A stretch of 64,000 nt of DNA, from NCBI RefSeq assembly GCF_900155395.1, contig NZ_LT699728.1:124001-188000 (forward strand). Direction: 5' to 3'. Below the pieces are notes generated by a model that did not search any database, was not told the DNA's origin, and saw nothing but the letters and a program-made list of their open reading frames with translations. Origin of the DNA: Merdibacter massiliensis. GTDB taxonomy: Bacteria > Bacillota_I > Bacilli_A > Erysipelotrichales > Erysipelotrichaceae. Of this stretch, positions 21,171 to 48,780 are shown piece by piece. Position 1 is the stretch's first letter. Every line of letters begins with the position of its first letter. The position numbers were made by a program, and so were the translations under genes.

Positions 21171-21211
21171 TTCTTTTTCATGGATAATTCCGGATTATCC
21201 ATGAAAAAGAA
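21171..21211. repeat. Palindrome at the outer edge of the left loaP repeat
   Basis: Two perfect 17-base arms (TTCTTTTTCATGGATAA, 21171-21187; complement 21195-21211) surround TTCCGGA. The right-hand repeat keeps only the inner GGATAA/TTATCC arms (48722-48740). The repeated block begins within this palindrome. No T run follows on either strand, so it does not look like a terminator. Confidence 0.7.
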
Positions 21212-21240
21212 TATCAAAGAAGCAATCGTCGCAGTGTCGC

Positions 21241-21270
21241 GTTGTTTCGATGATAGGATCATCACACAAC
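21241..21270 (+). promoter_or_regulatory. Leader hairpin, candidate LoaP recognition element (copy A)
   Basis: The 30 bases form an outer stem GTTGT/ACAAC, an internal loop and an inner stem GATGAT/ATCATC closed by AGG. LoaP proteins are known to bind a small RNA hairpin in the 5' leader of their target operon; position and size fit, but the exact LoaP consensus cannot be verified here. Confidence 0.5.
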
Positions 21271-21330
21271 TGTCTACCATGTATGAAACATGATGGATGG
21301 GCGAAGCATATTCTTATGGAGGTGCAGCGT

Positions 21331-21849
21331 ATGGAACAGTGGTACGTCATACAAGTACGTACAGGGAAAGAACAATGGGTCATCAAAGCGTGCGATCTTT
21401 TGATCGATGAACCATGCCTGAGCAAAAGCTTCATCCCCTTCAGCAAACGGCTTCGCAAATACAGAGGAGAATGGGTCGAGAGAACCGAGATCTTATTTCC
21501 AGGCTATGTATTCATGATCAGTGATGATCCGACACGACTGTATCAGGCATTAAAGAAGATACCTGATCTGACAAAGATGCTTGGAAAGAACAAACAAGAG
21601 ATCTATCCCCTGCCAGAAGATGAAGTAACTTTTCTAAAATCGTTTGGTGAAGAAGAACAGATCGTTGACATGTCAACGGGCTATATCGAGGGAGATAAAA
21701 TCATCGTGGAATGCGGACCTTTGAAAGGAAAAGAAGGATTGATCAAACGGATCGACCGGCATAAACGAATTGCAGAGATCGAGATCGAATTCTTAGGAGA
21801 ACAAAGGAAAGCAAAAGTCGGCTTAGAGATCGTAAGGAAGAACATATAG
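21331..21849 (+). CDS. loaP: LoaP-type NusG paralogue, processive antiterminator (copy A)
   Basis: The product is 172 residues from MEQWYVIQVRTGKEQW, with GGAGGT 7 bases upstream. An in-frame ATG at 21250 lies inside the leader hairpin and lacks a ribosome-binding site. Residues 1-110 form the NGN domain (LFPGYVFMISDDP); residues about 120-172 are a KOW motif (YIEGDKIIVECGPLKGKEG). LoaP acts with RNA polymerase to read through terminators in long polysaccharide or secondary-metabolite operons. An intrinsic terminator directly follows this gene and precedes the first biosynthetic gene, as expected of an operon it controls. The protein is identical to that of copy B. Confidence 0.9.
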   Translation: MEQWYVIQVRTGKEQWVIKACDLLIDEPCLSKSFIPFSKRLRKYRGEWVERTEILFPGYVFMISDDPTRLYQALKKIPDLTKMLGKNKQEIYPLPEDEVTFLKSFGEEEQIVDMSTGYIEGDKIIVECGPLKGKEGLIKRIDRHKRIAEIEIEFLGEQRKAKVGLEIVRKNI

Positions 21850-21867
21850 CAATGTATGTTCTTTTTC
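21838..21867 (+). terminator. Intrinsic terminator between loaP and cassette A
   Basis: AAGAACATA (21838-21846) pairs with TATGTTCTT (21855-21863) and runs into TTTTTC. The T run exists only in the cassette direction. It overlaps the loaP stop codon and would stop transcription before the cassette unless antitermination acts. Confidence 0.75.
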
Positions 21868-21890
21868 TATGGGATGAGGGAGGATTCAAA

Positions 21891-23099
21891 ATGACAAAAA
21901 TGAATATACCATTTTCTCCACCAGATTTAACAGACAAAGAAATTCAATCTGTTGGTGAAGCCTTAAAATCAGGGTGGATTACGACTGGACCAAAAACAAA
22001 AGAATTTGAAAGAAGAATATCTGCATATATTGGTACAGATAAAACAGTATGTTTAAATAGTGCTACAGCATGTATGGAATTAACGTTACGCATTCTTGGA
22101 GTGGGTCCTGGAGATGAAGTTATTGTTCCTGCATATACCTATACTTCATCATGTTCAGTCATTTGTCATGTAGGGGCAACTCCAATCATAATCGATTCCC
22201 AATCAAATTGTGTGGAAATGGATTATGATCAAATGGAGGCAGCAATTACAGATAAAACGAAGGTCATTATTCCTGTAGATATTGCAGGTGTTATCTGTGA
22301 TTATGAGCGTATCTATCAAGCAGTTGAAAAAAAGAAAGACTTATTTAAAGCAAATAATGCCATACAAAAAGCATATAACCGCATAATTGTATTAGCAGAT
22401 GCTGCTCATGCTTTTGGTGCTATGAAAAATGGAAAACGTTGCGGTCAATTTGCTGATTTTACTTCCTTTAGCTTTCATGCAGTAAAAAATTTAACTACTG
22501 CAGAAGGTGGAGCCATTACATGGAGAAATCATGAAGGAATTGATAATGAATATATTTATAAACAATTTCAATTATTATCTTTGCATGGCCAGACAAAAGA
22601 TGCATTGCATAAAAATCAATTAGGAGCTTGGGAATATGATATTGTTTCTCCAGCTTATAAATGCAATATGACTGATATTATGGCAGCTATTGGTTTGGTG
22701 CAATTAGATCGTTATGAAGAAATGTTAAATTGGAGACATGAAATTATTAAAATGTATAATGAGGCTTTTTCATCTCTTCCAGTTACTTTATTGAATCATT
22801 GCGATGAAAATCACAGATCTAGCGGACATTTATATTTGGTAAGAATACAAGGTGCAACAGAAGAAAAAAGAAATGAAATTATTATTAAGATGGCAGAAAG
22901 AGGTATTGCTTGTAACGTACATTATAAGCCACTGCCAATGATGACTGCCTATAAAGATATGGGGTTCAATATCAAAGACTATCCAAATGCACATCAATTA
23001 TATGTAAACGAAATCACTTTGCCCTTATATAGTAAATTAAAAAAATCAGAAATTGACTATATAATTAGTAATTTTTGTGAGGTAGTTGAGAGGTTATGA
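21891..23099 (+). CDS. DegT/DnrJ/EryC1-family sugar aminotransferase (cassette A, first gene)
   Basis: The start MTKMNIPFSPPDLTD is 8 bases after GGGAGG, which lies inside the 705-bp repeat. The 402-residue protein has the PLP fold of sugar aminotransferases: LNSATACMELTLR, VIVPAYTYTSS, LADAAHAFGAM (PLP-binding Asp) and the Schiff-base lysine in SFHAVKNLTTAEGG. It would convert a 4-keto sugar nucleotide to the 4-amino form; the only 4,6-dehydratase in the locus is at 48807-50684, outside the cassette. It overlaps the next gene by 4 bases. Confidence 0.88.
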   Translation: MTKMNIPFSPPDLTDKEIQSVGEALKSGWITTGPKTKEFERRISAYIGTDKTVCLNSATACMELTLRILGVGPGDEVIVPAYTYTSSCSVICHVGATPIIIDSQSNCVEMDYDQMEAAITDKTKVIIPVDIAGVICDYERIYQAVEKKKDLFKANNAIQKAYNRIIVLADAAHAFGAMKNGKRCGQFADFTSFSFHAVKNLTTAEGGAITWRNHEGIDNEYIYKQFQLLSLHGQTKDALHKNQLGAWEYDIVSPAYKCNMTDIMAAIGLVQLDRYEEMLNWRHEIIKMYNEAFSSLPVTLLNHCDENHRSSGHLYLVRIQGATEEKRNEIIIKMAERGIACNVHYKPLPMMTAYKDMGFNIKDYPNAHQLYVNEITLPLYSKLKKSEIDYIISNFCEVVERL

Positions 23100-23782
23100 G
23101 ATTAATTCCATTTGAAGAATTACCAGCAGAAATTAAAAATGATTCTGTTAAAAAGTATTATGATTCTCTTAAGAAAAAACAACTTCAACTTTCCTTTAAA
23201 AGAATATTTGATATTAGTGCTTCTATTATTTTATGTGTTATTTTATCACCTATTATAGTTATTCTTGCTATTTGGATTAAATTAGATTCAAAGGGTCCCA
23301 TTTTTTATCGTCAGGAACGTATTACACAATATGGAAAAAAATTTAAAATATTCAAATTTAGGACAATGGTCATTGATGCTGATAAAAATGGTTCATTAGT
23401 AACTACACAAAATGATACAAGAATAACTAAAGTTGGAAATAAAATACGAAAATGTCGTTTAGATGAAATTCCTCAGTTATTTAATGTCTTAAAAGGTGAG
23501 ATGAGCTTTGTAGGAACAAGACCAGAGGTAAAGAGATACGTAGAAAAATATACAGATGAAATGAAAGCAACTTTATTATTACCTGCTGGCATAACTTCTT
23601 TAGCAAGCATCAAATTTAAAAATGAAGATGAAATAATTTCAAACTATTTAAAGGACAAGTACAATATAGACGAAATTTATATAAAAAAAATATTGCCTGA
23701 AAAGATGAAATGGAACATAGAATACCTTTCATCTTTTAATTTTGGAAAGGATTTTTGGATATGTCTGAGAACTGTAATCTAA
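23096..23782 (+). CDS. Initiating sugar-phosphate transferase (cassette A)
   Basis: The 228-residue protein of the bacterial sugar transferase family has an N-terminal hydrophobic re-entrant helix (SIILCVILSPIIVILAIWIK), then KFRTMVIDAD, a catalytic RLDEIPQLFNVLKGEMSFVG and TRPEVKRY. It has the size of the small monotopic PglC/EpsL type rather than the long WbaP type. It transfers a sugar-1-phosphate from a UDP-sugar to undecaprenyl phosphate, starting a repeat unit. It is translationally coupled to the aminotransferase (ATGA overlap). Confidence 0.9.
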   Translation: MRLIPFEELPAEIKNDSVKKYYDSLKKKQLQLSFKRIFDISASIILCVILSPIIVILAIWIKLDSKGPIFYRQERITQYGKKFKIFKFRTMVIDADKNGSLVTTQNDTRITKVGNKIRKCRLDEIPQLFNVLKGEMSFVGTRPEVKRYVEKYTDEMKATLLLPAGITSLASIKFKNEDEIISNYLKDKYNIDEIYIKKILPEKMKWNIEYLSSFNFGKDFWICLRTVI

Positions 23783-24612
23783 TGCACAGTACAAAAATAA
23801 GTGTTTTAATGTCTATATATAATAAAGAAACTGCAAGCAATCTAGAACAATGTTTTGAAAGTTTACTTAATCAAACAATACCTGCCAATGAATGGGTAAT
23901 TGTTAAAGATGGTCCACTAACTTCAGAACTAGAATTTGTTTTGCATAAATATGAGAAATTATATCCTACTCTAATAAAATATGTAATATTTGAAAAAAAT
24001 AAAGGTTTAGGCATTGCTTTAAGAGAAGGAGTAATCGCATGTAGTAATGAAATTATAGCTAGAATGGATACAGATGATATTTGTCGTCAAGATAGATTTG
24101 AATTAGAACTAAAAGAATTTATAAATGATCCTAGTTTAGATATTGTAGGAAGCCACATAAAAGAGTTTGATCAGAATATTAACAATATTATTTCAGTACG
24201 TAAAGTTCCTTTGGAAAATAATGAAATAATCAAATATCAAAAAAGGAGAAGCGCTTATAATCACATGACAGTGATGTTTAAACGAAGGTCAATTTTAAAA
24301 GCTGGAAATTATGAACATGCTCCACTTATGGAAGATGATATGTTATGGACTAGATTGATTCTTGCAGGTTGTAAAGGAAAAAATATTGACGACTATTTGG
24401 TGTTTGCAAGAACAGGTAAAGCTATGATATCTAGAAGAGGAAGTTTTTCATATTTTCTAAAATATAAGAAGAGTAGAAGAAAAGTTTATAAATTAGGACT
24501 AGCAAGTTACTCCGATTATCTTTATACTGTTTTAATTCAATTTTTTATCTCTTTAATGCCATTAAAATTAAGACAAGTTGTATTTATCAAAATATTACGG
24601 AGGAATAAATAA
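23761..24612 (+). CDS. Glycosyltransferase family 2 (cassette A)
   Basis: The 284-residue start MSENCNLMHSTKISVL follows AAGGA by 9 bases; it overlaps the end of the sugar transferase gene by 22 bases. GT-A features are visible: ISVLMSIYNKET, EWVIVKDGP, NKGLGIALREG and the metal-binding ARMDTDD. Later, MEDDMLWTRLILAG marks the acceptor side. It adds a sugar to the lipid-linked intermediate at the inner face of the membrane; the specificity is not deducible. Confidence 0.85.
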   Translation: MSENCNLMHSTKISVLMSIYNKETASNLEQCFESLLNQTIPANEWVIVKDGPLTSELEFVLHKYEKLYPTLIKYVIFEKNKGLGIALREGVIACSNEIIARMDTDDICRQDRFELELKEFINDPSLDIVGSHIKEFDQNINNIISVRKVPLENNEIIKYQKRRSAYNHMTVMFKRRSILKAGNYEHAPLMEDDMLWTRLILAGCKGKNIDDYLVFARTGKAMISRRGSFSYFLKYKKSRRKVYKLGLASYSDYLYTVLIQFFISLMPLKLRQVVFIKILRRNK

Positions 24613-24613
24613 A

Positions 24614-25621
24614 ATGAATAAAACTAGTCCATTAATTTCAATTATTGTTCCTATATATAACGTTGAACAATTTTTAACTAGATGTTTAAAATCCATATGC
24701 AATCAAAGTTACCAAAATATAGAAATAATCTTAGTAAATGATGGTTCTACTGACAATAGTGAAAACATTGCTTTAGAATTTCAAAATAAAGACGATCGAA
24801 TTAAATATTATTATAAAGAAAATGGAGGTTTGAGTTCAGCAAGAAATTTTGGTATTAAAGTATCACATGGTGAATTTATTGGTTTTGTTGATAGTGACGA
24901 TTGGATTTCGAAAGATATGTTTTATTATCTTTTAAATCTTATTTTTTCATATAATGCTGATATTTCATGCATTAATTATTTAGTCACTAATAAAGAAACT
25001 GATTTAATTAATAAGAATATAAAGATTTATGAATATAATAATGAAGTTGATATATATAAACATATTATATCTAAAGAGGACTATTCCTTTTGTACAAAAT
25101 TATTTAAGAGACAGCTTATTAGTCATAATATGTTTAAAGAAGGTAAATGTAATGAAGATATTTTAGCATGGTGTAAGTTAATTAAACCGAATATGAAAAT
25201 AGTTTATAGTACAAAAATACAATACTTTTATTTTAATAATACAAATCATGTTTCAATTTCAAATCCAATTTATGGTGTACGAAAACGTGACTTTGACTTA
25301 TTATATGCAACGAATTGTTTGTATAAAAAAACCATTAGGTATCATAATTCTAGTTTGACATACTTATCAGAATTAAAAAATGCAAGAAGCTATTTTTCAT
25401 TATTAGCTAAAATTGCATTTTATGGATATTTGGATGTAGAACTGAAAAATAATGAAAAAAAAATTGAATCAGAGTTATTGTATAATTTAAAAAATAATTT
25501 AATCGTTTTAATGAAAAGTAATATAGGTATCAAAAGAAAGATTCCTTGTTTAATGTTTTGTTGTAATTATACTATTTCAAAAAAAATATTTAGATTAATT
25601 AAAAAAATATATAGGAGGTAA
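24614..25621 (+). CDS. Glycosyltransferase family 2 (cassette A)
   Basis: The 335-residue product starts at MNKTSPLISIIVPIYN after GGAGGA, one base beyond the previous stop codon; a longer in-frame start inside the previous gene is unlikely. GT-A motifs are IILVNDGSTDNS, ENGGLSSARNFG and GFVDSDDWI (DxD). The C-terminal third is Lys/Asn-rich and less conserved. It is part of the tightly packed cassette. Confidence 0.88.
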   Translation: MNKTSPLISIIVPIYNVEQFLTRCLKSICNQSYQNIEIILVNDGSTDNSENIALEFQNKDDRIKYYYKENGGLSSARNFGIKVSHGEFIGFVDSDDWISKDMFYYLLNLIFSYNADISCINYLVTNKETDLINKNIKIYEYNNEVDIYKHIISKEDYSFCTKLFKRQLISHNMFKEGKCNEDILAWCKLIKPNMKIVYSTKIQYFYFNNTNHVSISNPIYGVRKRDFDLLYATNCLYKKTIRYHNSSLTYLSELKNARSYFSLLAKIAFYGYLDVELKNNEKKIESELLYNLKNNLIVLMKSNIGIKRKIPCLMFCCNYTISKKIFRLIKKIYRR

Positions 25622-25623
25622 AA

Positions 25624-26928
25624 ATGATTTATAATCAATTGATAAATAAGAAAACAAAATTAAGCTTAGTAGGCTTAGGGTATGTTGGAATGCCAATTGC
25701 TGTAGCATTTTCCAAAAAAATTAAAGTAGTTGGTTATGATTTAAACCAACATAAGATTGAAATGTATAAAAACGGCATAGATTCGACCAATGAAGTAGGA
25801 AATGATGCCATTAAGAGTTGTACTGTAGAATTTACTTCAGATGAAACAAAATTAAAAGAATGTTTATTTCACATTGTTGCGGTGCCTACACCTGTTCGTG
25901 ATGATCATACACCTGACCTTACGCCAGTAGAAAGTGCAAGTAGAACAGTTGGTAGAAACTTGCAAAAAGGGTCTATTGTTGTATATGAAAGCACAGTTTA
26001 TCCGGGTGTAACTGAAGATATATGTATCCCTATTCTCGAAAAAGAATCTGGATTGAAATGTGGTATTGATTTTAAAGTTGGTTATTCTCCTGAACGAATT
26101 AATCCTGGAGATAAAGTTCATCGACTAGAGACAATAACGAAAATTGTATCAGGGATGGACAAAGAGACATTAGATCAAGTCGCAAAAGTATACGAACTTG
26201 TTGTAGCTGCTGGCGTATATAGGGCGGAATCAATCAAGGTTGCGGAAGCGGCAAAAGTAATCGAAAATTCGCAACGTGATATTAATATCGCATTCATGAA
26301 TGAACTTTCGATTATTTTCAATAAAATGGGAATTGATACGCAGTCTGTATTAAAAGCAGCAGGAACGAAATGGAATTTTTTAAAATTCACACCTGGTCTT
26401 GTAGGTGGTCATTGTATTGGTGTAGATCCATACTACTTAACATATAAGGCAGAACAAGAAGGATATCATTCACAAATCATATTATCAGGACGTAGAATTA
26501 ATGACGATATGGGAAAATATGTTGCAGAGAATGTAGTTAAAAATATGATTCGTAATGATAAAAATGTTAAAAATGCAAGAGTTGGTATTTTAGGATTCAC
26601 TTTTAAAGAAAATTGCCCAGATACGCGTAATACGAAGATTATTGATATTGTTAAAGAACTAAATGAATATGGTATTTATCCAATTATAGTTGACCCTGTT
26701 GCGGATGCAGAAGAGGCTAAACATCTTTATGGCTTAGAATTTGAAGAGATGTCCGATTTAGTAAATTTAGATGCATTGGTGATTGCAACTAGTCATGATG
26801 AATTTAAAGATTTAACTATTGATCAATTTAATGCGATGTTTGTTGATAAGAAGATTGTTATTGATGTTAAAGGGATTCTTAATAGAAAAGAATATATTGA
26901 AGCAGGTTATGATTACTGGAGATTATAA
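25624..26928 (+). CDS. UDP-N-acetylhexosamine 6-dehydrogenase, TviB/WbpO-like
   Basis: The 434-residue UDP-glucose/GDP-mannose dehydrogenase-family protein shows the N-terminal NAD fold LSLVGLGYVGMPIAVAFSKK, a central EAAKVIENSQRDINIAFMNE and the catalytic cysteine in GLVGGHCIGVDPYYL. The tandem TGDTRNTK-like motif near the end reads NCPDTRNTKI. Family knowledge: it oxidises UDP-GlcNAc or UDP-GalNAc at C6 to the uronic acid. The next gene encodes the matching 4-epimerase, so UDP-GalNAcA is the likely product, giving an acidic polysaccharide. Confidence 0.9.
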   Translation: MIYNQLINKKTKLSLVGLGYVGMPIAVAFSKKIKVVGYDLNQHKIEMYKNGIDSTNEVGNDAIKSCTVEFTSDETKLKECLFHIVAVPTPVRDDHTPDLTPVESASRTVGRNLQKGSIVVYESTVYPGVTEDICIPILEKESGLKCGIDFKVGYSPERINPGDKVHRLETITKIVSGMDKETLDQVAKVYELVVAAGVYRAESIKVAEAAKVIENSQRDINIAFMNELSIIFNKMGIDTQSVLKAAGTKWNFLKFTPGLVGGHCIGVDPYYLTYKAEQEGYHSQIILSGRRINDDMGKYVAENVVKNMIRNDKNVKNARVGILGFTFKENCPDTRNTKIIDIVKELNEYGIYPIIVDPVADAEEAKHLYGLEFEEMSDLVNLDALVIATSHDEFKDLTIDQFNAMFVDKKIVIDVKGILNRKEYIEAGYDYWRL

Positions 26929-26945
26929 AAAAGGAGAGAGTGGTT

Positions 26946-27920
26946 ATGGGATACAAAAATATATCTTTTCCAGAAAATAGTATTTTTTTAGTAACTGGCG
27001 GAGCAGGTTTCATTGGATCTAATCTCTGCGAAGCAATTTTAAATCTTGGGTATAAAGTAAGATGTTTAGATAATCTATCTACAGGAAAGCAAGAAAATGT
27101 AGACTTGTTCATAAATCATCCAAATTATACATTTATTAAAGGAGACATTACTGATTTAGATACTTGCCTTTCTGTATGTGAAGGTGTTGATTATGTGTTA
27201 AATCAAGCAGCATGGGGATCAGTTCCAAGAAGTATTGAAATGCCCTTATACTATGAAAAAGTGAATATAGGCGGAACCCTCAATATGATGGAAGCCGCTA
27301 GACAAAAAGGTGTCAAAAAATTTGTATATGCTTCTAGTTCTTCTGTGTATGGAGATCATCCTGTATTACCAAAAGTAGAAGGACAAGAAGGAAACTTATT
27401 GTCACCCTATGCTTTAACAAAACGTGTAGATGAAGAATATGGAAAACTTTATAAGAAATTATATAACTTGGATACATATGGAATGCGCTACTTTAATGTC
27501 TTTGGTAGAAGACAAGATCCTAATGGAGCTTATGCGGCAGTAATCCCAAAGTTTATTAAACAGTTATTAAATGATGAAGCACCTACAATTAACGGAGATG
27601 GTAAGCAGTCAAGAGATTTTACGTATATAGATAATGTAATAGAAGCAAACTTGAAGGCTTGTTTAGCACCTAGTGAGTATGCTGGTGAAGCATTTAATAT
27701 AGCTTATGGTGGAAGAGAATATCTTATTGATATCTATCATCATCTTTGTAAAGCATTAGATAAAAATGTTGAACCAATATTTGGACCAGATCGTGCAGGA
27801 GATATTAAACATTCAAATGCTTGCATAGATAAAGCAAAGAAAATGTTAAACTACAATCCAACATATAGTTTTGAAGAAGGAATAGCTTTGGCTATTGATT
27901 GGTATAAAGAGAATCTATAA
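26946..27920 (+). CDS. UDP-sugar 4-epimerase, TviC/WbpP-like
   Basis: The 324-residue extended short-chain dehydrogenase starts with MGYKNISFPENSIFLV; GGAGAG lies upstream of the ATG at 26946 (a GTG at 26940 is less likely). The Rossmann motif GGAGFIGSNLCEAIL, the Ser in ASSSSVYGDHP and the catalytic pair in YALTKRVDE (YxxxK) are all present. The N-terminal extension before the Rossmann fold is typical of WbpP/TviC group-3 epimerases acting on N-acetylated UDP-sugars or their uronic acids. Confidence 0.9.
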   Translation: MGYKNISFPENSIFLVTGGAGFIGSNLCEAILNLGYKVRCLDNLSTGKQENVDLFINHPNYTFIKGDITDLDTCLSVCEGVDYVLNQAAWGSVPRSIEMPLYYEKVNIGGTLNMMEAARQKGVKKFVYASSSSVYGDHPVLPKVEGQEGNLLSPYALTKRVDEEYGKLYKKLYNLDTYGMRYFNVFGRRQDPNGAYAAVIPKFIKQLLNDEAPTINGDGKQSRDFTYIDNVIEANLKACLAPSEYAGEAFNIAYGGREYLIDIYHHLCKALDKNVEPIFGPDRAGDIKHSNACIDKAKKMLNYNPTYSFEEGIALAIDWYKENL

Positions 27921-27961
27921 TAAAAGAAAGGAGAGCCTTATTTATTGTGTAGTATGTTATT

Positions 27962-29443
27962 ATGATTAGATTAAAAAAGATTAATAAATATATTTTAATA
28001 AATATTGTTCACTGTGTATTACTGTTAGTGGGATCAATACTATTTTTTTTCTTTATGAGTAAGGATGATTTAAATTATTCCGTATTAAGTATTTTACTCA
28101 TATTTATTTCTCAAGTTATTTTTTGTTTGATAAAATATGAACAAAGAATAGCATATTTGCTATTTCTTGCATCTTTTTTTATTTTTCTTTTAGGTAGAAT
28201 GTGCGTTGAGTATTTTTACTATGGTTCAATTGGTTTTTATTTTACACTTAGTATTTCAAAACATATGCTTTTATCAATTTTTATATCACTAATATTTTTA
28301 GAAGTAGGATATTGTTGCATTTTAATAGTTAAAAATAAATATAAGCATTTGAATATTAGTTTTAATGATCATAAAAGAGAAACAGAAAAATATTCTTTCT
28401 TGATGAGAATTTCATTTATCCTATTTTCTATAACTTTCATATGTGTTATATTAATGAATTTTGAACAAGTTATATACGTTAATAAATATGATTATATTGC
28501 ACTTTTCAAAGATTTTCATAGCCAATTACCTCGTTTACTACAGGTAGTTGGTAATATGTACATTGTTTCTTTTTTGATTTTTTTAGGGACTTGTCCAAAA
28601 AGAAGATATTGTATTATTTCGTTTATAATGTTTTTCATAATATCGTTAACAGACTTACTTATTGGAGATAGAGGAACTTTTATCATAAATTTAGCAATAA
28701 TAATTGTGTATATTTTTTGGAGAGAGTGTGTTGATAATAAAATATGGATTAATAGAAAAATAATTCTCTTAACAATTGTCATCTTACCTCTATTTTTAGC
28801 ATTTTTAAATTACTTTGTTAGCATTAGAGAAGATGTGAATATGGGAGAAAATAAAATATCAGCACAACTACGAAACTTTTTTATTTCTACAGGTTCATCA
28901 GTGGATATATTAGGTTATGGCGAAGTGTATAAAGATGATTTGCCACAATCATTTTATTCTTTTGGAGAATTAATTGATTACCCTAAATATAATCCAATTT
29001 CGGAATATCTATTTAATATAGCTGAGCCAATGCCGCATACAAAAGAATATGTTTATACAATGCATTCTTACGCGCATGCAATATCATATTTTATTGATTC
29101 TAATCTGTATTTAGAAGGACATGGAAAAGGTTCATCTTATATCGCAGAGGTATATAATGATTTTGGATATATTGGAATAATTGTTTGTAATCTTCTTTAT
29201 GGTTCTTTATTAGCATCAGTTAACTTAGTAAAAAAAGGAAAACCATTTCTTCTAGCATGTCTTTTAATTTCCATTCGAATAATGTTTTATGTTCCAAGAG
29301 GAGCAATGATTCAACCAATTAGTTATGTTTTAAATATTACTACATTAAGTGCATTATTCTTTTTTTTCATTGCCATGAAAAATGAAATTAGATTAAAGAC
29401 TGCTTTCCAAACTTTTTTAAATAAGGTACGAAAGGTAATTTAA
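27962..29443 (+). CDS. Wzy-type polysaccharide polymerase (cassette A)
   Basis: The 493-residue very hydrophobic protein has about 12 predicted membrane helices and a large extracytoplasmic loop near residues 290-390 (GSSVDILGYGEVY, MHSYAHAISYF). This is the layout of O-antigen/oligosaccharide repeat polymerases. It has no sequence signature beyond that; its place between sugar-nucleotide genes and a flippase supports the call. It would link repeat units at the outer face of the membrane. Confidence 0.75.
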   Translation: MIRLKKINKYILINIVHCVLLLVGSILFFFFMSKDDLNYSVLSILLIFISQVIFCLIKYEQRIAYLLFLASFFIFLLGRMCVEYFYYGSIGFYFTLSISKHMLLSIFISLIFLEVGYCCILIVKNKYKHLNISFNDHKRETEKYSFLMRISFILFSITFICVILMNFEQVIYVNKYDYIALFKDFHSQLPRLLQVVGNMYIVSFLIFLGTCPKRRYCIISFIMFFIISLTDLLIGDRGTFIINLAIIIVYIFWRECVDNKIWINRKIILLTIVILPLFLAFLNYFVSIREDVNMGENKISAQLRNFFISTGSSVDILGYGEVYKDDLPQSFYSFGELIDYPKYNPISEYLFNIAEPMPHTKEYVYTMHSYAHAISYFIDSNLYLEGHGKGSSYIAEVYNDFGYIGIIVCNLLYGSLLASVNLVKKGKPFLLACLLISIRIMFYVPRGAMIQPISYVLNITTLSALFFFFIAMKNEIRLKTAFQTFLNKVRKVI

Positions 29444-39873: not shown

Positions 39874-40665
39874 TTACCTTCTTGTTCGATGAAGAAATTC
39901 ATAAACTGATGTTGGCAATAATCCTATAATAATTGGCTTTAATACATAAATATAATTATATTTGGGTAAGAAAAAATCTTTAACTATTAATTTTTTTACA
40001 TATGCTTCATTAAGTCTATATTTGAACTTTCTTCTCTTAGTTGCAGCCCTATCATCCCTCATTTTATACAAAGGTTCTTCTAAATTATATCCTATATAAC
40101 CATTTAAATACATTTTAAACCATAAATGATAGTCTTCTACTCGTAGTAGCTTTTTATTTACCGTATATCCTTTTACTTTTCTATATGCAATTGTTCTTAC
40201 CATGCACGGAGCATGACAAAATGGTGTCCCTTTTACAAAATCACTCTTTTCTGGTTTTGCAATACTATTACTTTTCCCCCAATCTCCTGATTCGTCGAAA
40301 TATATCATATTTGTACTGACAATTGAATATTGTCTATTTAATTTTAAAAAACTAATTTCTTTCTCAAATCGTGTTGGCAATGATATATCATCTGCGTCCA
40401 TCCTTGCAACAAATTCAGTATCAACATATTCCAAACACTTATTTAATGTATAATTTAATCCTCTATTCTTATCATTTTTTAGTAAAATAACATTGTCATT
40501 ATTTTCTGCAATTTTTTTTGCTATTTCATATGTGTTATCTGTAGATCCATCATCACACATGATTAATTTCCAATTTTTATACGTTTGTTCTTTTAATGAA
40601 TTAAATGCTTCATCTAAAGTTAAAGAACAATTATAAATTCCCATAATAACAGATACTTCAGTCAT
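39874..40665 (-). CDS. Glycosyltransferase family 2 (cassette B)
   Basis: The 263-residue product starts MTEVSVIMGIYNCSLTL at 40665, after GAGGA. GT-A motifs are LIMCDDGSTDNT, NRGLNYTLNKCLEY and ARMDADDISLPTRF (DxD). HAPCMVRTIAYRKV and VEDYHLWFKMYLNG are also typical of EpsE/WcaA-like enzymes. It is followed by a C-terminal hydrophobic stretch. Confidence 0.87.
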   Translation of the reverse strand: MTEVSVIMGIYNCSLTLDEAFNSLKEQTYKNWKLIMCDDGSTDNTYEIAKKIAENNDNVILLKNDKNRGLNYTLNKCLEYVDTEFVARMDADDISLPTRFEKEISFLKLNRQYSIVSTNMIYFDESGDWGKSNSIAKPEKSDFVKGTPFCHAPCMVRTIAYRKVKGYTVNKKLLRVEDYHLWFKMYLNGYIGYNLEEPLYKMRDDRAATKRRKFKYRLNEAYVKKLIVKDFFLPKYNYIYVLKPIIIGLLPTSVYEFLHRTRR

Positions 40666-40808
40666 ATAAATCCTCAAATCATCAATCTTATTTTTTGATT
40701 AATGTCTCTTTCTAAGTCATAAATGTAAATTATATTTTTTGGTTATGCAATATACTCATAAACTTCATTATTTCAGCATATAAAATTTCAAGTTTGCATG
40801 TGTTGCAT

Positions 40809-41948: not shown

Positions 41949-41959
41949 AGAATATAATC

Positions 41960-42056
41960 TCCCTTTCAATTTTTGGTATATGTAGATTTTAGTTTCGTAG
42001 GAACACCTACGTAAGTTCCTTTATTAATTAAACAGTTGCTGTCATTAGTGCTCTCA
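41960..42056 (-). pseudogene. Remnant of a hexapeptide acetyltransferase C-terminus
   Basis: In one minus-strand frame the stretch reads SNCLINKGTYVGVPTKLKS, the usual end of a left-handed beta-helix acetyltransferase (GTYVGVPAK). Nothing upstream of it in that frame belongs to the same gene, so it is a fragment. Confidence 0.4.
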
Positions 42057-42983
42057 TTATCTTACTCTCTTTACAGGAGTTCCCACATATTTACCAGATT
42101 CTTTAATATCGGCAATAATTGTTGCCCCTCCACCAACTGTTACTTCATTACAAATAGTTATATTGTTAATTGCTGAACTTCCAATACCTATCCATGTCTT
42201 ATTTCCAATATGTACTGTACCAGCAATATGCACACCAGGTGAAATATGTATAAAATCTTTATAAACACAATCATGATCTATAGTTGCTGCTGTGTTAATG
42301 ATTCAGCTCTTGCCAATAATTGTATCGGTATTAATAACTACGTTTGCCATAATAACTATACCTTCTCCTATATTAACTGTTGGATTAATTATTGCAGAAG
42401 GGTGAATCAAAATAGGTTGAGTAATGTTATTTTGATTTATCATATAGTAATAATCAGTATTTACACCTGCTCCATGTAATACACAACATTTATCATTTTT
42501 AACAATATCAAATTCTAAAAATTCTTTTTTATTTCCTACATTTTCAAAGAAAAGCACTTTAGCTCTCTTACTAGCGTATCTATACCATAAAATAACAATT
42601 TTTTTTAATAAGCCATCATATTGAAAAATTGTTCCTAATCCTGTAACGTTTATAACATAAGCAAAATTTAAAATTCTAGCTATAGTTGCTCCATATAAGT
42701 TTGGTTTGATTGTATAAGTAATGATTAGGGAAGGTTTAATTTTTCTCATAATTCTAAAATATGTTAATATTAGTTTTAAATCTTCTATTGGATTCATGCC
42801 TCTTCTATCTATTTTGGTTTCAATTAAATATACTCCTAATTTTTTTAAATCATCTATATGATCATCAAATGGAGTTGAAGCATATACAAAAAAACCTTGT
42901 GAAATTAACTTTTTAATTAATTCTTTTCTAAACCCATATAAACCACCTGAGTTATTTGCTAAAATTAAAATTTTTTTACTCAT
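42057..42983 (-). pseudogene. Deletion fusion of a PglA-like glycosyltransferase with a PglD-like acetyltransferase, then interrupted by a stop
   Basis: Residues 1-175 are the N-terminal half of a GT4 enzyme (ILILANNSGGLYGFRKELI; INVTGLGTIFQYDG), ending at VLHGAGVNTDYY where such proteins enter the donor half. The frame continues directly into LIHPSAIINPTVNIGEGIVI, the C-terminal beta-helix of a PglD/NeuD acetyltransferase. A TGA at 42303-42305 stands where Cys or Trp is expected (IGKS-stop-IINTAATIDHDC), and the same frame continues in register to GGGATIIADI and a stop at 42057. It is non-functional as either enzyme. Confidence 0.8.
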
Positions 42984-43956
42984 TTGACAGTTCCTCTTGT
43001 TTTTTTATAACAACAGAATCATACATCATCATGACAATCCCTTCATCATAGTTACCAATATCTTCTCCGTTTTCAACATTCTCTATATTATTTTTAATGA
43101 GTTTAACAAAATCTACTCCAGCTCCATATGCATGCAAATACGCTCCACCAAACCTAGGATTAATTTCAGAAAGATAATAATTTCCATTCTTATAAAAAAA
43201 ATCGATATCTATTGGTCCATTAAATTGAAAACATGTGACAATTTTTTTTATAAAATCAAATAATACAGGATCTTTGAATGAAATAGTTTTATTAGCACCA
43301 CCAATTTTAGTTTCAATTTTCTTTTTTGTAAAGATACTAATTGGCTTGTGACTTATCATATCGACATAAACATCTGCATCTAAATCCAAACCATCCATAT
43401 ATTCTTGGATAATTAGAAAACTGTTCTTTTCACAAATTGCTTTTAATTCTTCAATACTATTTATTTTCTTTGCTCCTACACTTCCACTACCAGTTCTTGG
43501 TTTGACAAAAACAGGTAAGCGAATTTCGCCTTTATCATAATTAATTTTAAAATCTTGAAAGCTAGAATATGTTTTAATAGTAGTAATATTTTGTTTTAAT
43601 AAATATTCATACATTTTATATTTATCAAAACATAGTTCAGCAGTTTTTAAAGATGGTGCTAATACTTTTACATTAATGCTCTCAAATAAATCGCGATTCT
43701 TTGCTAGAATTTGAATTTCCGGATCGATAAAAGTAGTAATTGCATCAACCTTTTCTTCTTTACAAATTTCAATAATTTTTGATAAATATGACTCATCATC
43801 AATACGTGGAACAATATAATATTTATCTGCTAGATATAAAGCAGGAGCATATTTACTATGATCTGTAGCAATAATTTGAACAGAGTTTTTCATAGATTTC
43901 TTGAAATCTTTTATTAACTCACCACGACGACCAACACTACAAAATAATATATTCAT
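42976..43956 (-). CDS. ATP-grasp family ligase (cassette B)
   Basis: The 326-residue product starts MNILFCSVGRRGELIKD after AAGGAG. The ATP-grasp fold is shown by RLPVFVKPRTGSGSVGAKK (ATP-binding loop), FLIIQEYMDGLDLDADVYVD and FYLSEINPRFGGAYLHAYG (Mg-binding Glu/Asn). It resembles CarB-like ATP-grasp proteins in polysaccharide loci, which form amide or peptide-like bonds. With the neighbouring PLP decarboxylase-like and epimerase genes it may make or attach an amino-acid-like substituent; this is inference. Confidence 0.82.
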   Translation of the reverse strand: MNILFCSVGRRGELIKDFKKSMKNSVQIIATDHSKYAPALYLADKYYIVPRIDDESYLSKIIEICKEEKVDAITTFIDPEIQILAKNRDLFESINVKVLAPSLKTAELCFDKYKMYEYLLKQNITTIKTYSSFQDFKINYDKGEIRLPVFVKPRTGSGSVGAKKINSIEELKAICEKNSFLIIQEYMDGLDLDADVYVDMISHKPISIFTKKKIETKIGGANKTISFKDPVLFDFIKKIVTCFQFNGPIDIDFFYKNGNYYLSEINPRFGGAYLHAYGAGVDFVKLIKNNIENVENGEDIGNYDEGIVMMMYDSVVIKKQEELSNE

Positions 43957-43982
43957 TTTAAAAATCACTCCTTAAAAACTTC

Positions 43983-45008
43983 TTATTGGTAATTTAAATA
44001 CTTCTTTTCATACTCTTCTCTTGTTCCCCAAAGTTTAGAAAATGGTTCAGTTATCATTTCATGCTTAAAATCTTTTAACATTTTTATATAGGTATATTCT
44101 GGATAATAATGTAAATCTCTAGTTGTTTTTGAATAATCTAACATTGACTGTAAAGTATCTGGTTTAGTTTTATCATATTGAATTAATGATTGATTTCCTC
44201 CTTCAGAGAATACTTCAACGATACCATGAATCATTTCATCCAAAGAAACTCGTGTTGGTGAACCTATATTATAAAAGCCACCAGCTAAATCAGATTTCAC
44301 TGCATTAACAATTACTTTTGTAAAATCTTTAATATATACCATTTCTTTTACTCTATTCGGATTTCCATATATACTAATTGTTTCTCCTTTGCTAGCTTTA
44401 TCCATTAACATACGATATGGCATCATTCGCATCTTTCCATCAGCGTAATGGTAAGCATTAGGATGATATTGATAAATAGTAAAAAAACGTAAAATAAATC
44501 TAGATATTCCATATTCATTATGATAGTTTTCAATTAAATCAACTGCAGCATTCTTTGCAATGGTATATATACTATGGTCTCCAGTTGGTGGAAAAGATCT
44601 TGGGGAGTCAGGATCAATTGGTTTTCCCGTTTCATGTAAATATGATAAATCATATGGAGTTGTTGGGAAAATAATTTTTTTTATACCTTCTTTACGCATA
44701 AATTCAAGAACATTCATTGTTGCTTCAGTGATTGTTTGAATTAATTTTTGTGGATTAAAAGCACAACGTGAGGGTAATTCACCAGCTAAATCCACAACTG
44801 ACACAATATTTTTATTTGAAAGAATATTGAACGATTGATTATTTGTAATATCAATAGAATAGTACTCAATCCCTTTTTCAGCAAAAAAGCCATTATCACT
44901 CTCTCTTTTTCCTGCTGCAATCACGTCATAACCAGCTTCTTTTAAGGCTATAGCACTATATGCCCCTAAATTACCAGTAGCTCCCAAAACCAAAACTCGA
45001 CTATTCAT
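43983..45008 (-). CDS. NAD-dependent epimerase/dehydratase (cassette B)
   Basis: The 341-residue extended SDR starts MNSRVLVLGATGNLGAY, with GAGGAGG upstream, and overlaps the decarboxylase-like gene by 8 bases. The glycine motif GATGNLGAYSAIAL and a Tyr-Lys pair in YTIAKNAAVDLIENY are seen, with PTTPYDLSYL before it. The substrate is unknown; it is coupled to the ATP-grasp gene downstream and the fold-type III PLP gene upstream. Confidence 0.83.
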   Translation of the reverse strand: MNSRVLVLGATGNLGAYSAIALKEAGYDVIAAGKRESDNGFFAEKGIEYYSIDITNNQSFNILSNKNIVSVVDLAGELPSRCAFNPQKLIQTITEATMNVLEFMRKEGIKKIIFPTTPYDLSYLHETGKPIDPDSPRSFPPTGDHSIYTIAKNAAVDLIENYHNEYGISRFILRFFTIYQYHPNAYHYADGKMRMMPYRMLMDKASKGETISIYGNPNRVKEMVYIKDFTKVIVNAVKSDLAGGFYNIGSPTRVSLDEMIHGIVEVFSEGGNQSLIQYDKTKPDTLQSMLDYSKTTRDLHYYPEYTYIKMLKDFKHEMITEPFSKLWGTREEYEKKYLNYQ

Positions 45009-46194
45009 TGACTTTTTCCTCCTCATTTGAATATATATCGTAATATTCTTTTGTATTCATTCTTCTTCTTACCTTAAAAATACTATTTTTAGATTGTACA
45101 TAGACTTCTGGAAAATATCGAATAAAAGGACCTCCAAAAGTCATAGTATATGACCCAACTTTGTGATATATTATCTTATCTCCTTTTTTTAATGGAAAAT
45201 AATTAAATATATTCATTATCCTATCATGATCCATGCACGTATAACCACATATAATCTGTTTATCTAAAATTTCTTTCTTTGTTTCTGATATAACCGAATA
45301 AAGATACTTTGTTTTTTTCCAAAGAGGATCTATTAGTATTCTGCTCCCATCCGTAGTAATGATATTTGCATTATTTGTGTGTTTTGAATCTATAACAGTT
45401 GTACATAGATCTACAGTTGATCCAATTATGGCAGAACCTGGTTCAACAATTAATTGTACACGCATTAAATCAACTACATCACGTAATTCATTTGTAATAC
45501 ATTTGATATAATCGTTTGCATTTGGTTTTCCTTCTACTCCACCAAAAAAACCACCACCAATATCGATATAAGACAATTTAATATTATATTTTTTAATTAT
45601 TGTCTTACAATATCTAGCTATTGCGCAATAAACTTTAATACTTCTTGTGATACTATTACAATGAAGATGTAAGCCAATAGGAATCTTACCATAAATTGAA
45701 TAGACTTGGTTAATTACTTTTTCAAGTTCTCCATTTTCTACTGAAAAACCAAAACGAAACCCATCTTCTTGATACCCAATATCTTCTTGCAAAAAAATTT
45801 GTGGATCAATATTTACTCTTATACCTAAATTCCCTTTAATTTCTGGCTTAAAATTACATAAATATTCCAATTCATTTTCTGAATCAATATTAACAAAAGA
45901 GTGATTTTCAAAGGCATTTTTTAATCCAGCTTCCGTTTTGATTGGACCATTAAAAATAATTTGATTATCGGTAAAACCACATAATTTCGCTAATTGATAT
46001 TCTTCATCAGATACAGCTTCAACTGCAATATTTTGCGCTTTTAAATATTTTAGAATCCACGGTAATGAATTAGTCTTTATTGAATATGCAATCAAAGAAT
46101 TTGGCCAATATTTATTTAAAGCTCTTTTAAAACAAGATATATTATTATTCAATTCCTCTTCATAAATAAGATAGTAAGGAGTTTTCACTTTCAT
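45001..46194 (-). CDS. Fold-type III PLP enzyme, DAP/Orn decarboxylase family (cassette B)
   Basis: The 397-residue protein has an alanine-racemase-like barrel followed by a beta domain. The PLP lysine is in LIAYSIKTNSLPWILKYL. The phosphate-binding glycines appear in YIDIGGGFFGGVEGK, and the substrate-side Cys in IICGYTCMDHDRI. YEEELNNNISCFKRAL at the N-terminus is as in LysA. The length fits diaminopimelate or related decarboxylases, but its location in a polysaccharide cassette suggests a dedicated amine or amino-acid modification. Confidence 0.83.
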   Translation of the reverse strand: MKVKTPYYLIYEEELNNNISCFKRALNKYWPNSLIAYSIKTNSLPWILKYLKAQNIAVEAVSDEEYQLAKLCGFTDNQIIFNGPIKTEAGLKNAFENHSFVNIDSENELEYLCNFKPEIKGNLGIRVNIDPQIFLQEDIGYQEDGFRFGFSVENGELEKVINQVYSIYGKIPIGLHLHCNSITRSIKVYCAIARYCKTIIKKYNIKLSYIDIGGGFFGGVEGKPNANDYIKCITNELRDVVDLMRVQLIVEPGSAIIGSTVDLCTTVIDSKHTNNANIITTDGSRILIDPLWKKTKYLYSVISETKKEILDKQIICGYTCMDHDRIMNIFNYFPLKKGDKIIYHKVGSYTMTFGGPFIRYFPEVYVQSKNSIFKVRRRMNTKEYYDIYSNEEEKVNE

Positions 46195-46820
46195 TCACCA
46201 TCCTCTCCAGTAAATTCCATCATAGTATATTGTTTAGTACTGCTCGAATCAATTCCTTCTCTTTTAAATACCAAACAAATAGTGCTGACAATGATTTTTA
46301 AATCTAACAAAAAAGTTAAATTATTAACATATTCTATATCATATTCAAATCTGCGTGACCATGTAGTCTCATTTCTTCCATTTGTTTGCGCCAAACCTGT
46401 TAATCCTGGTCTAACATCGTGACGATGTTTTTGAAAATCATTATAGAGAGGAAGATATTTTGTTAAAAGTGGTCGCGGTCCAACAATACTCATATCTCCC
46501 TTTAATATATTGAATAATTCAGGTAATTCATCTAGAGAAGAATTTCTTAAAAATTTTCCAACTTTAGTTAACCTCTTTATATCCGGTAATAAATTTCCAT
46601 TTTCGTCTCTCTCATCTGTCATACTGCGAAATTTATACATCTTAAATATTTTTTCATTTTTACCTGGACGTTCTTGACAAAAGATTATTGGGCTTCCTAA
46701 TTTGATTCGAACCAATATAGCCACGATCAAAATAACGGGACTTAATGCAATAAGTGCAATCAGTGACAATATAAAATCAAAGAATCTTTTAAAGAATAAA
46801 CGATACATTATTGGAAACAT
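46191..46820 (-). CDS. Initiating sugar-phosphate transferase, PglC/EpsL-like (cassette B)
   Basis: The 209-residue protein has MYRLFFKRFFDFILSLIALI as N-terminal membrane element (ATG 46808 is an alternative start), then MYKFRSMTDERDENG, SSLDELPELFNILKGDMSIVG and PRPLLTKYLPLYN. This is the minimal PglC size. In PglC systems the donor is UDP-diNAc-bacillosamine; the dehydratase (48807) and aminotransferase (46808) upstream match that pathway. It overlaps the aminotransferase by 13 bases. Confidence 0.9.
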   Translation of the reverse strand: MFPIMYRLFFKRFFDFILSLIALIALSPVILIVAILVRIKLGSPIIFCQERPGKNEKIFKMYKFRSMTDERDENGNLLPDIKRLTKVGKFLRNSSLDELPELFNILKGDMSIVGPRPLLTKYLPLYNDFQKHRHDVRPGLTGLAQTNGRNETTWSRRFEYDIEYVNNLTFLLDLKIIVSTICLVFKREGIDSSSTKQYTMMEFTGEDGE

Positions 46821-48034
46821 CCTTTCACGATTTCAATAATTTGTTCTTGTTCTTCCTTAGTCATCTTATTATCGCTTGGTAAGCACAAACCTCTTTCAAA
46901 GATATCTGCTCCAACATCTAATGCTTTTCCTTCGATATAAGCGTTTGTTCTTGCTCTCCCGTTTCCATCTTTTGTAATGAAAGGATTCATACGATAAATC
47001 GGCTGCATGTGCATTGGCTTCCAGATTGGTCTTCCTTCTGCATTATACTTTGCTAAAGTTTCTAGTATTTCAGTAGGGCATGATTTGCCTGGCTCGCTTA
47101 TATATAATGCTTCATTTTCTCCACGTACTTGTTTACACATTGCTTCTTTGTCAATCAATAAACAAGATAACCAATAGTTTGGTACACTGTTTATTTCATC
47201 ATATGGATTCATAATAACCGGAAGATCTTTGAATCCTTCTTTATACCGTTCATAAATTGCTTTTTTCTGTGCAATATGTTCTTCTAGATATGGAATCTGT
47301 CCGCGTACGACACCCGCAATGACATTCGACATGCGATAGTTGTATCCAACTTCTTCGTGTTGGTACCAAGGTGCATTTTCTCTTGCCTGCGTTGACCATT
47401 TTCTAGCTTTGTTTGCTTCTTCCAGATCATCAGTAAGCAACATACCACCACTTGATCCGGTAATGATTTTATTTCCATTGAATGAAATAGCTCGAATATC
47501 ACCGAAATTTCCAGTTTGGATTCCTTTGTATGTAGCGCCTAAAGATTCAGCTGCATCTTCAATGATGATAGCACCATGTTTTTTGCACACGCTTTGTAAT
47601 TCTTCAATCTTTCCAGGTACTCCATACAAATGAGCAATCACGACAACTTTAACATCTGGATATATCTCAAATGCTTTCTCTAAAGCAATTGGATCCATAT
47701 TCCATGTATCATATTCCGTATCAATAAAAATAGGAATACCACCTTCATACACCACAGGATTTAATGTTGCCGCAAAGGTCATGTCCGAACAAAAAACATG
47801 ATCACCAGGTTTGACTCCTGCCAGCTTGACAGCTAGATGAAGTGCTGCAGTCCCACTGGATAATGCCACCGCATATTTGCATCCAACTTTTTCTGCAATC
47901 AATCTTTCCACTTCATCGATGTTTTTACCCACTGTAGACATCCAATTGGATTCATAAGCCTGCGTGATGTATTTCAGTTCATCTCCATGCATGGTTGGAC
48001 TGGATAACCAGATCTTATGTTTAAATTTTTCCAT
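46808..48034 (-). CDS. DegT-family sugar aminotransferase, PglE/EpsN-like (cassette B, first gene)
   Basis: The start MEKFKHKIWLSSPTMHGDE at 48034 has GGGAGG 7 bases upstream, inside the 705-bp repeat. The 408-residue PLP enzyme shows ALSSGTAALHLAVKLAGV, SDMTFAATLNPVVYEGG, IIEDAAESLGATYKG and the lysine in SFNGNKIITGSSGG. Family members aminate UDP-4-keto-6-deoxy-GlcNAc. The required dehydratase is two genes upstream, on the other side of loaP. Confidence 0.9.
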   Translation of the reverse strand: MEKFKHKIWLSSPTMHGDELKYITQAYESNWMSTVGKNIDEVERLIAEKVGCKYAVALSSGTAALHLAVKLAGVKPGDHVFCSDMTFAATLNPVVYEGGIPIFIDTEYDTWNMDPIALEKAFEIYPDVKVVVIAHLYGVPGKIEELQSVCKKHGAIIIEDAAESLGATYKGIQTGNFGDIRAISFNGNKIITGSSGGMLLTDDLEEANKARKWSTQARENAPWYQHEEVGYNYRMSNVIAGVVRGQIPYLEEHIAQKKAIYERYKEGFKDLPVIMNPYDEINSVPNYWLSCLLIDKEAMCKQVRGENEALYISEPGKSCPTEILETLAKYNAEGRPIWKPMHMQPIYRMNPFITKDGNGRARTNAYIEGKALDVGADIFERGLCLPSDNKMTKEEQEQIIEIVKGCFQ

Positions 48035-48054
48035 AAATCCTCCCTCATCCCATA

Positions 48055-48084
48055 GAAAAAGAACATACATTGCTATATGTTCTT
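48055..48084 (-). terminator. Intrinsic terminator between loaP and cassette B
   Basis: Same 9-bp stem (AAGAACATA/TATGTTCTT) and five-T run as in the left copy, directed into cassette B. Confidence 0.75.
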
Positions 48085-48591
48085 CCTTACGATCTCTAAG
48101 CCGACTTTTGCTTTCCTTTGTTCTCCTAAGAATTCAATCTCGATCTCTGCAATTCGTTTATGCCGGTCGATCCGTTTGATCAATCCTTCTTTTCCTTTCA
48201 AAGGTCCGCATTCCACGATGATCTTGTCTCCCTCGATATAGCCCGTTGACATGTCAACGATCTGTTCTTCTTCACCAAACGATTTTAGAAAAGTTACTTC
48301 ATCTTCTGGCAGGGGATAGATCTCTTGCTTGTTCTTTCCAAGCATCTTTGTCAGATCAGGTATCTTCTTTAATGCCTGATACAGTCGTGTCGGATCATCA
48401 CTGATCATGAATACATAGCCTGGAAATAAGATCTCGGTTCTCTCGACCCATTCTCCTCTGTATTTGCGAAGCCGTTTGCTGAAGGGGATGAAGCTTTTGC
48501 TCAGGCATGGTTCATCGATCAAAAGATCGCACGCTTTGATGACCCATTGTTCTTTCCCTGTACGTACTTGTATGACGTACCACTGTTCCAT
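48073..48591 (-). CDS. loaP: LoaP-type NusG paralogue, processive antiterminator (copy B)
   Basis: The 172-residue protein is identical to copy A; the gene has three silent differences from it. NGN domain plus C-terminal KOW motif (YIEGDKIIVECGPLKGKEG). The start at 48591 follows GGAGGT. This copy lies 190 bases downstream of a strong promoter and between the dehydratase gene and the cassette B aminotransferase, so it is the copy most likely to be expressed in the present orientation. Confidence 0.92.
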   Translation of the reverse strand: MEQWYVIQVRTGKEQWVIKACDLLIDEPCLSKSFIPFSKRLRKYRGEWVERTEILFPGYVFMISDDPTRLYQALKKIPDLTKMLGKNKQEIYPLPEDEVTFLKSFGEEEQIVDMSTGYIEGDKIIVECGPLKGKEGLIKRIDRHKRIAEIEIEFLGEQRKAKVGLEIVRKNI

Positions 48592-48651
48592 ACGCTGCAC
48601 CTCCATAAGAATATGCTTCGCCCATCCATCATGTTTCATACATGGTAGACA

Positions 48652-48681
48652 GTTGTGTGATGATCCTATCATCGAAACAAC
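48652..48681 (-). promoter_or_regulatory. Leader hairpin, candidate LoaP recognition element (copy B)
   Basis: Same two-part hairpin as at 21241-21270 (GTTGT/ACAAC and GATGAT/ATCATC), about 93 bases downstream of the inferred transcription start and 61 bases before loaP. Confidence 0.5.
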
Positions 48682-48780
48682 GCGACACTGCGACGATTGC
48701 TTCTTTGATATTCTTTTTCATGGATAATCCGGAATTATCCTTTATTTATAAAAGCGGTGTAACCGTTTTTACCACGTGAC

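Follow-up and report, generated by a model that had tools for sequence, protein, structure and literature searches.

Our analysis of a 64,000-nt stretch of the Merdibacter massiliensis genome (contig NZ_LT699728.1, positions 124,001 to 188,000; hereafter the window) points to a switch built from whole operons. Two convergent polysaccharide cassettes lie between inverted copies of a block encoding the antiterminator LoaP, and we consider it likely that site-specific inversion swaps the two operons behind one fixed promoter. According to the mechanism we propose, a promoter beside a sugar dehydratase gene (~48781) would fire leftward into crossover site B, at one end of a ~27.5-kb segment that holds the two operons, each of which starts with a LoaP leader, loaP, terminator and ribosome-binding site of its own. 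An Xer-like tyrosine recombinase, probably a 305-aa protein encoded at G000:C23:188675-189589 (G-numbers denote genomes, G000 being the window genome, and L-numbers extracted loci), would cut GGATAA-TTCCGGA-TTATCC at both sites and invert the segment, thereby putting the other operon behind the promoter and silencing the first. The connected loaP copy would supply the LoaP that lets the polymerase pass the terminator into the long operon, as suggested by analogy with LoaP of Bacillus velezensis. Judged from the promoter motif, cassette B would be connected and cassette A disconnected in the present assembly. The elements of the proposed switch are the following.

21171-21211, no strand: outer-edge palindrome of block A, 41 bp (by reading and from the site-pair table)
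21182-21200, no strand: proposed crossover site A, GGATAA-TTCCGGA-TTATCC (core only in the two blocks genome-wide)
21182-21886, + strand: block A, with site, LoaP leader, loaP, putative terminator and Shine-Dalgarno sequence (repeat search, alignment)
21225-21243, + strand: conserved leader motif, ATCGTYGCnnnGTCRCGT-like (alignment of 11 leaders)
21331-21849, + strand: loaP copy A (longest open reading frame (ORF) 21250-21849; start by eye)
21840-21866, + strand: putative intrinsic terminator between loaP and cassette A, stem GAACATA/TATGTTC followed by a T run (by eye)
48036-48740, − strand: block B, with site, leader, loaP (48073-48591), terminator and Shine-Dalgarno sequence (repeat search, alignment)
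48722-48740, − strand: proposed crossover site B, spacer TTCCGGA as in site A, inverted orientation (site search)
48781-48792, − strand: promoter motif TTGTGCTATAAT, outside the invertible segment and facing block B

The inverted pair was found by repeat search exactly where a preliminary description of this DNA had placed it, with 705 nt in each copy and 26,149 nt in between, and the genome holds no third copy of the block. The two copies are 99.4% identical and differ by four substitutions (block positions 413, 515, 518 and 605); three had been counted before, and their silent nature stands, as all four fall within loaP and the translations of both ORFs are identical. Each block starts with GGATAATTCCGGATTATCC and terminates at ...GGGAGGATT, with the Shine-Dalgarno sequence inside the block and the start codons outside (21891 for A and 48034 for B), as had also been described. 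What the preliminary description did not contain is the palindrome GGATAA-TTCCGGA-TTATCC at the outer edge of both blocks, which on the A side is extended outward by 11 more bases. A genome search allowing up to 3 mismatches found it nowhere besides these two places. Short inverted sites with an identical spacer at both ends are what is seen in tyrosine-recombinase inversion systems. The blocks have a G+C content of 42-43%, close to the 39-41% of the dehydratase gene and of the LytR-CpsA-Psr (LCP) gene next to it, and the cassettes are at about 28%; the antiterminator module thus looks native and the payloads foreign.

The block-encoded protein passes the curated NCBIfam LoaP model (NF033641, 190.8 bits against a cut-off of 125). 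Its true start is, by eye, probably the ATG at 21331, in which case the 199-aa ORF includes the leader. The conserved motif in this leader may be a LoaP recruitment element, and terminator-like hairpins similar to the one in the window were seen by eye in relatives. The genome lacks a third LoaP, the next best match being 21% identical, and a search of the two further genomes from the genus, 86% and 85% complete, gave no LoaP match.

The promoter motif lies ~40 bases beyond site B, and the site is thus placed between the promoter and the loaP leader; on the A side the motif is absent within 450 bases. It was picked post hoc, after these sequences had been viewed, and has 31 matches in 3,816,852 strand-bases of loci, these loci included. 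A one-sided motif is present in three of the four same-contig pairs (the window, G277 and G272), and the same scan found it on neither side in G289 and nowhere before the loaP of G235. Along with the recurrence of the layout in other genera, this agrees with the earlier proposal that whole operons would be exchanged behind one fixed promoter.

Relatives were compared using one genome per species. LoaP was found in 33 of 272 family genomes at 1e-15 and in 33 of 315 order genomes at 1e-30, two sets that overlap, and a class-wide draw searched with the LoaP of G277 at 1e-35 gave 11 of 395 genomes, all within this order. A LoaP scan of genome contigs returned one locus, and a viral-contig scan with a 30-base block sequence had 0 matches. 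Comparison of the block junctions, which had been suggested as a check, showed the same inverted, convergent layout in two relatives: two inverted LoaP blocks flank convergent polysaccharide cassettes on one contig in G277 (C6; 687 bp, 99.85% identity) and in the single-contig assembly of G272 (C1; 690 bp, 98.3%), and the edges are again at GATAA-N7-TTATC. G289 has two near-identical LoaP blocks on two separate contigs. A different arrangement was seen in G235 (C8), where a single loaP is followed by the site and then by a cassette, and the second cassette, which faces it, starts where the site recurs in inverted orientation; both copies of the site sit within a ~1-kb repeat of 91% identity, of which G237 carries a second copy at a contig end. 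Likewise, in G274 the site comes after the one loaP and also ahead of a second cassette, which is on another contig; the sites (C43 and C34) have 18 of 19 bases in common plus 4 and 3 flanking bases, and are 85% identical over 41 bp overall. A second pair in G272 (1753244/1756617) has 17 bp in common with flanks lacking contiguous identity, encloses convergent gene units and has a TATAAT-like box outside one end. Loci with a loaP-anchored inverted repeat were confined to G277 and G272 among 21 groups and to G235 among 12 groups, and no other turned up when 40 additional regions surrounding loaP genes of the family (23 groups) were examined. This recurrence also bears on whether the blocks are a false inverted duplication made during assembly. 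The window genome is in 23 contigs, which leaves room for such an artefact, but it is hardly credible given the four base differences between the copies, their unrelated flanks and the same layout in other assemblies, including the single contig of G272.

Alignment of the sites gave the arms RGATAA/TTATCY. The spacer is identical within each pair and differs between these six species: TTCCGGA in the window, TTGACAG in G277, TAGAGAG in G272, TTAGTTA in G289, TTGCGAA in G235 and TCCGCTA in G274. When 400 bases upstream and 120 downstream of loaP were scanned, a GATAA-N-TTATC site was present in 15 of 65 loaP rows, and all 15 spacers were 7 bp although 5-9 were allowed; L007 and G191, the latter in the family of the window, appear to be the same contig, leaving 14 distinct rows. 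The loaP-bearing genomes G209, G301, G309 and G310 were left out of this examination. The copy number of loaP follows the position of the site. Where the site comes before loaP there are two loaP copies (window, G277, G272 and G289), and where it comes after loaP, both genomes in which a pair was identified (G235 and G274) have a single copy. With the site upstream of loaP each payload needs its own copy and loaP is duplicated, and with the site downstream one copy suffices; this is the pattern that a fixed promoter with exchangeable payloads requires. The palindrome could instead be an RNA hairpin, needed by both operons for LoaP recruitment or termination, a role that could coexist with a switch. 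It is located in or beside the transcribed leader in the window, and B. velezensis LoaP depends on a leader hairpin of UNCG type according to the accessible text of the report (PMC12691694). As the explanation of the sites we nevertheless find this very unlikely, as the 7-nt middle varies between species, the site precedes loaP in some genomes and follows it in others, the same site flanks loaP-free segments such as the Thoeris-like pair in G011 described below, and a separate conserved leader motif exists.

The window genome has nine phage-integrase-family matches at 1e-8. Three of them were compared; two fall in groups widespread among relatives, presumably XerC and XerD, and the third belongs to a separate clade. 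This clade member is the intact 305-aa protein named above, encoded ~16 kb from block B and just outside the window (window coordinate ~64675). It is closest in sequence to solved XerD and fails the NCBIfam equivalog cut-offs for both XerC (228.4 vs 335.15) and XerD (207.7 vs 329.6). R155, K179, H247, R250, H273 and Y282 are invariant in 13 clade members, and we take them to be catalytic-type residues. The clade was found in 25 of 315 genomes of the order at 1e-45. Among 51 loaP genomes, 10 have a site linked to loaP, and 8 of these carry the clade vs 5 of the other 41 (Fisher p 7e-5, no correction for phylogeny).

The site is also linked to the clade where the recombinase gene itself is located. 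At 26 clade loci of genomes (258,160 bases; 1 of 27 recombinase places, the second in G304, was omitted) we found 16 perfect sites, among them three inverted same-spacer pairs and no direct pair. Nineteen permuted arms of equal base make-up gave a mean of 1.05 sites at the same loci, with a maximum of 3 and no pair, and in 1,665,989 bases of other DNA (some loci overlap) there were 14 sites and no pair. Of the spacer lengths 3-12 at the 26 loci, 7 peaks with 16 sites and the next highest has 6. Allowing one arm mismatch gave five inverted and no direct pairs at these loci, and the single match in other DNA, L276, is G087 again, already among the five. At 57 loci of other recombinases there was one site and no pair. 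We also examined nine viral or phage loci that carry a clade member, had played no part in defining the site and include no two near copies. They held 7 perfect sites in 6 loci vs a permuted-arm mean of 0.21; they contain one perfect inverted pair (L281), three with one mismatch (L278, L281 and L286) and no direct pair. These loci were the 3 best of 1227 phage records and 6 of 63 viral loci (near-complete matches of at least 39% identity, the next being 31%; below this pick there were a few short matches of higher identity over fewer than 65 residues).

These data allow the route of inversion to be weighed. The preliminary description had proposed homologous recombination between the loaP blocks, and a 705-bp stretch that is 99.4% identical offers it ample substrate. 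G277 and G272 likewise have blocks that match each other at 98-99.9%, and no other genome found has a LoaP more than 57% identical to that of the window, which indicates that the copies have been homogenised or recently duplicated in each genome. Homologous recombination through the blocks is therefore possible, but it is not required. It leaves unexplained that in 5 of 5 pairs the distance from the GATAA arm of a GATAA-N7-TTATC site outward to the block edge is 0 to 8 bp, that same-spacer pairs exist without long homology (the second G272 pair and G274), and that the sites are associated with one recombinase clade. Since the edges coincide with a palindrome enriched beside one clade, and pairs occur without other homology, site-specific recombination is the better explanation, and RecA-dependent inversion of the segment with merely incidental palindromes seems unlikely to us. 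The earlier mechanism is thus not supported in the form proposed.

Several observations weigh against a site-specific switch, or against its being active. The opposite orientation was not seen; the assembly of the window genome shows one, and one genome per species was compared. The 705-bp blocks could themselves recombine homologously. Mismatches are in weak excess at the inner block ends (p 0.003 for an inner cut of 5% and 0.06 for one of 10%), and a mismatch gradient along the blocks is only suggestive. G239 and G191 (79% and 82% complete) have the site and lack the clade recombinase, five loaP genomes carry the recombinase and lack a loaP site, and G273 has two loaP genes with a site at only one. 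With one mismatch allowed, no pair was found at 22 of 26 genome loci and 6 of 9 viral or phage loci, many of which have short flanks. The association of clade and site does not extend to the window genome's own recombinase gene, as C23:188001-208000 around it holds no site and the nearest one found, at C23:184951, is unpaired; two further unpaired RGATAA-N7-TTATCY matches exist in this genome. Finally, clade copies in G277 (C6:472290-473180) and G235 (C6:66317-67168) have an in-frame stop and that of G272 (C1:213833-214606) is disrupted at the N-terminus; the switches in these three genomes may consequently be frozen or served by another enzyme. Disrupted clade recombinases occur even in genomes with nearly identical blocks.

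Such observations could also mean a static arrangement, in which two clusters, one of them captured beside a duplicated loaP block, do not invert in present-day cells. The absence of a second orientation among the available assemblies and the disrupted recombinases of G277, G235 and G272 are in its favour. We regard it as improbable, given that convergent cassettes with edge-matched sites recur in several genera, that the copies are highly identical and that the recombinase of the window genome is intact.

The unpaired site nearest to the recombinase gene is at 60951-60969 of the window (C23:184951), ~3.7 kb from that gene, and its spacer, read on the + strand, is TGTTCCT; we saw no second site sharing this spacer. 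In other loci, inverted pairs enclose different genes. Next to clade recombinases, the pairs L272:3161-5354 (G011 C4) and L278:12525-14668 enclose convergent SIR2-type and TIR genes. The SIR2 gene of G011 matches ThsA (PADLOC, 346.6 bits) and its partner is a TIR protein; in L278 we read these genes by eye, and there is a mismatch in an arm of one site. Both pairs are possibly invertible defence systems of Thoeris type. The pairs L273:6211-9640 (G141), L181:3244-6635 and L264:6808-10143 (both G272) contain an ATP-grasp-type gene and, pointing towards it, one or two genes that gave no profile match; the ATP-grasp call is from Pfam in the G141 and L181 pairs and by eye in L264. We tentatively suggest that the Xer-like clade and GATAA-N7-TTATC could serve this order, and some viral records, as an all-purpose system for swapping payloads. 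It would place whole polysaccharide operons with their antiterminator, and also convergent defence genes (Thoeris-type SIR2/TIR), behind promoters that stay in place, and a single enzyme could then switch both phage receptor and phage defence.

In Bacteroides, capsule polysaccharide operons phase-vary by Mpi-dependent flipping of a small promoter and have NusG-like UpxY antiterminators. In the window the promoter stays and the operons would flip. The preliminary description had called this a principle different from known capsule switches, a claim now weakened by a preprint on Eggerthella lenta (May 2026), whose accessible text reports reversible inversions that reposition capsule clusters relative to loaP (PMC13174815). 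The large inversions there are flanked by the short repeat GATAAGCGCGGTTATG, at which the authors suggest recombination by machinery in trans; no recombinase was found beside the breakpoints, and a simple promoter swap is not favoured (PMC13174815, accessible text). E. lenta is the nearest precedent for the window, and it differs in several ways. It belongs to the Actinomycetota and the window presumably to the Bacillota; its inversions are, in the same text, about 2 Mb (plus one of 32.5 kb ascribed to a transposon) vs 27 kb; its repeat reads GATAA-N6-TTATG vs GATAA-N7-TTATC, compared by eye only; and duplicated loaP blocks, a feature of the window, are not described in the parts of the preprint available. 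The nearest fixed-promoter precedent is the vpma locus of Mycoplasma agalactiae, where, as far as the accessible text goes, the Xer-like tyrosine recombinase Xer1 inverts silent units behind one promoter at sites in 5' untranslated regions (PMC2268961). That 9.6-kb locus exchanges single lipoprotein genes, in contrast to the multi-gene operons with antiterminator of the window. RecV of Clostridioides difficile and pneumococcal PsrA/hsdS are likewise recombinase-driven inversion systems of phase variation in Firmicutes, but in the sources as available they concern regulatory switches or hsdS gene exchange rather than whole biosynthetic operons. LoaP of B. velezensis, of the same antiterminator family by profile, acts on the difficidin and macrolactin operons, and the accessible text describes no inversion (PMC12691694).

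Besides the E. lenta preprint, our literature search, in which subscription journals were mostly outside coverage and sources were partly seen, gave no whole-operon capsule inversion. By this search the features that appear new are the site family and its recombinase clade, the duplication of the antiterminator module, the rule linking site position to loaP copy number, and the repeated occurrence of the layout within one order; the principle is not wholly new. If the switch is real, capsule identity would be a heritable choice between whole biosynthetic operons instead of on/off promoter flipping, and the compact crossover site with a candidate enzyme would make it testable. The recombinase is also a possible counterpart for the unexplained machinery behind the E. 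lenta inversions. In addition, site position relative to loaP would then predict loaP copy number, a simple rule for finding such switches in sequence data.

The cassettes and the genes flanking them are listed below; assignments are from profiles, and in the cassettes also from membrane-segment counts.

21891-32737, + strand: cassette A, with DegT aminotransferase, initiating transferase, two GT2, sugar dehydrogenase, epimerase, Wzy, GT4 and a 506-aa membrane protein
33462-34699, − strand: transposase-like genes or fragments between the cassettes
34828-48034, − strand: cassette B, with DegT aminotransferase, initiating transferase, PLP decarboxylase-like protein, epimerase, ATP-grasp, GT4 and GT2 genes, and 413-aa and 499-aa membrane proteins
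48807-50684, − strand: sugar dehydratase, which we take to be CapD/PglF-like
50933-52465, − strand: LytR-CpsA-Psr family protein

The two convergent cassettes thus each have the DegT aminotransferase, initiating sugar transferase and glycosyltransferases ascribed to them earlier. A polymerase and a flippase in each is a claim that held in part, as the Wzy polymerase of cassette A is the one identified by profile (TIGR04370, 61.9 bits against a cut-off of 40). The 413-aa and 499-aa proteins of cassette B have 9 and 11 membrane segments and the 506-aa protein of cassette A has 10, by a crude count and with no meaningful profile match; assigning the first two as polymerase and flippase, and the third, from this count is only partly shown. 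The sugar dehydratase is found upstream of loaP in many relatives too. Adjoining the disconnected side is a gene for a 716-aa protein (18960-21110) of no clear family, with a weak NUDIX-like match.

Further away, 10432-16834 is island-like and lies beside a tRNA-Ser gene; it carries a phage-type integrase, a repressor-like gene, an IS256 transposase and an AbiLi-like AAA ATPase. The integrase (15375-16667) was considered as the invertase and is not favoured, as it looks phage-type and is part of this island. The window also has three IS110-family-like copies, at 5474-6730 and 52701-53957 (both by Pfam profile) and at 63129-63995 (by repeat), and an identical 300-bp stretch is located ahead of the first two (5164-5463 and 52391-52690).

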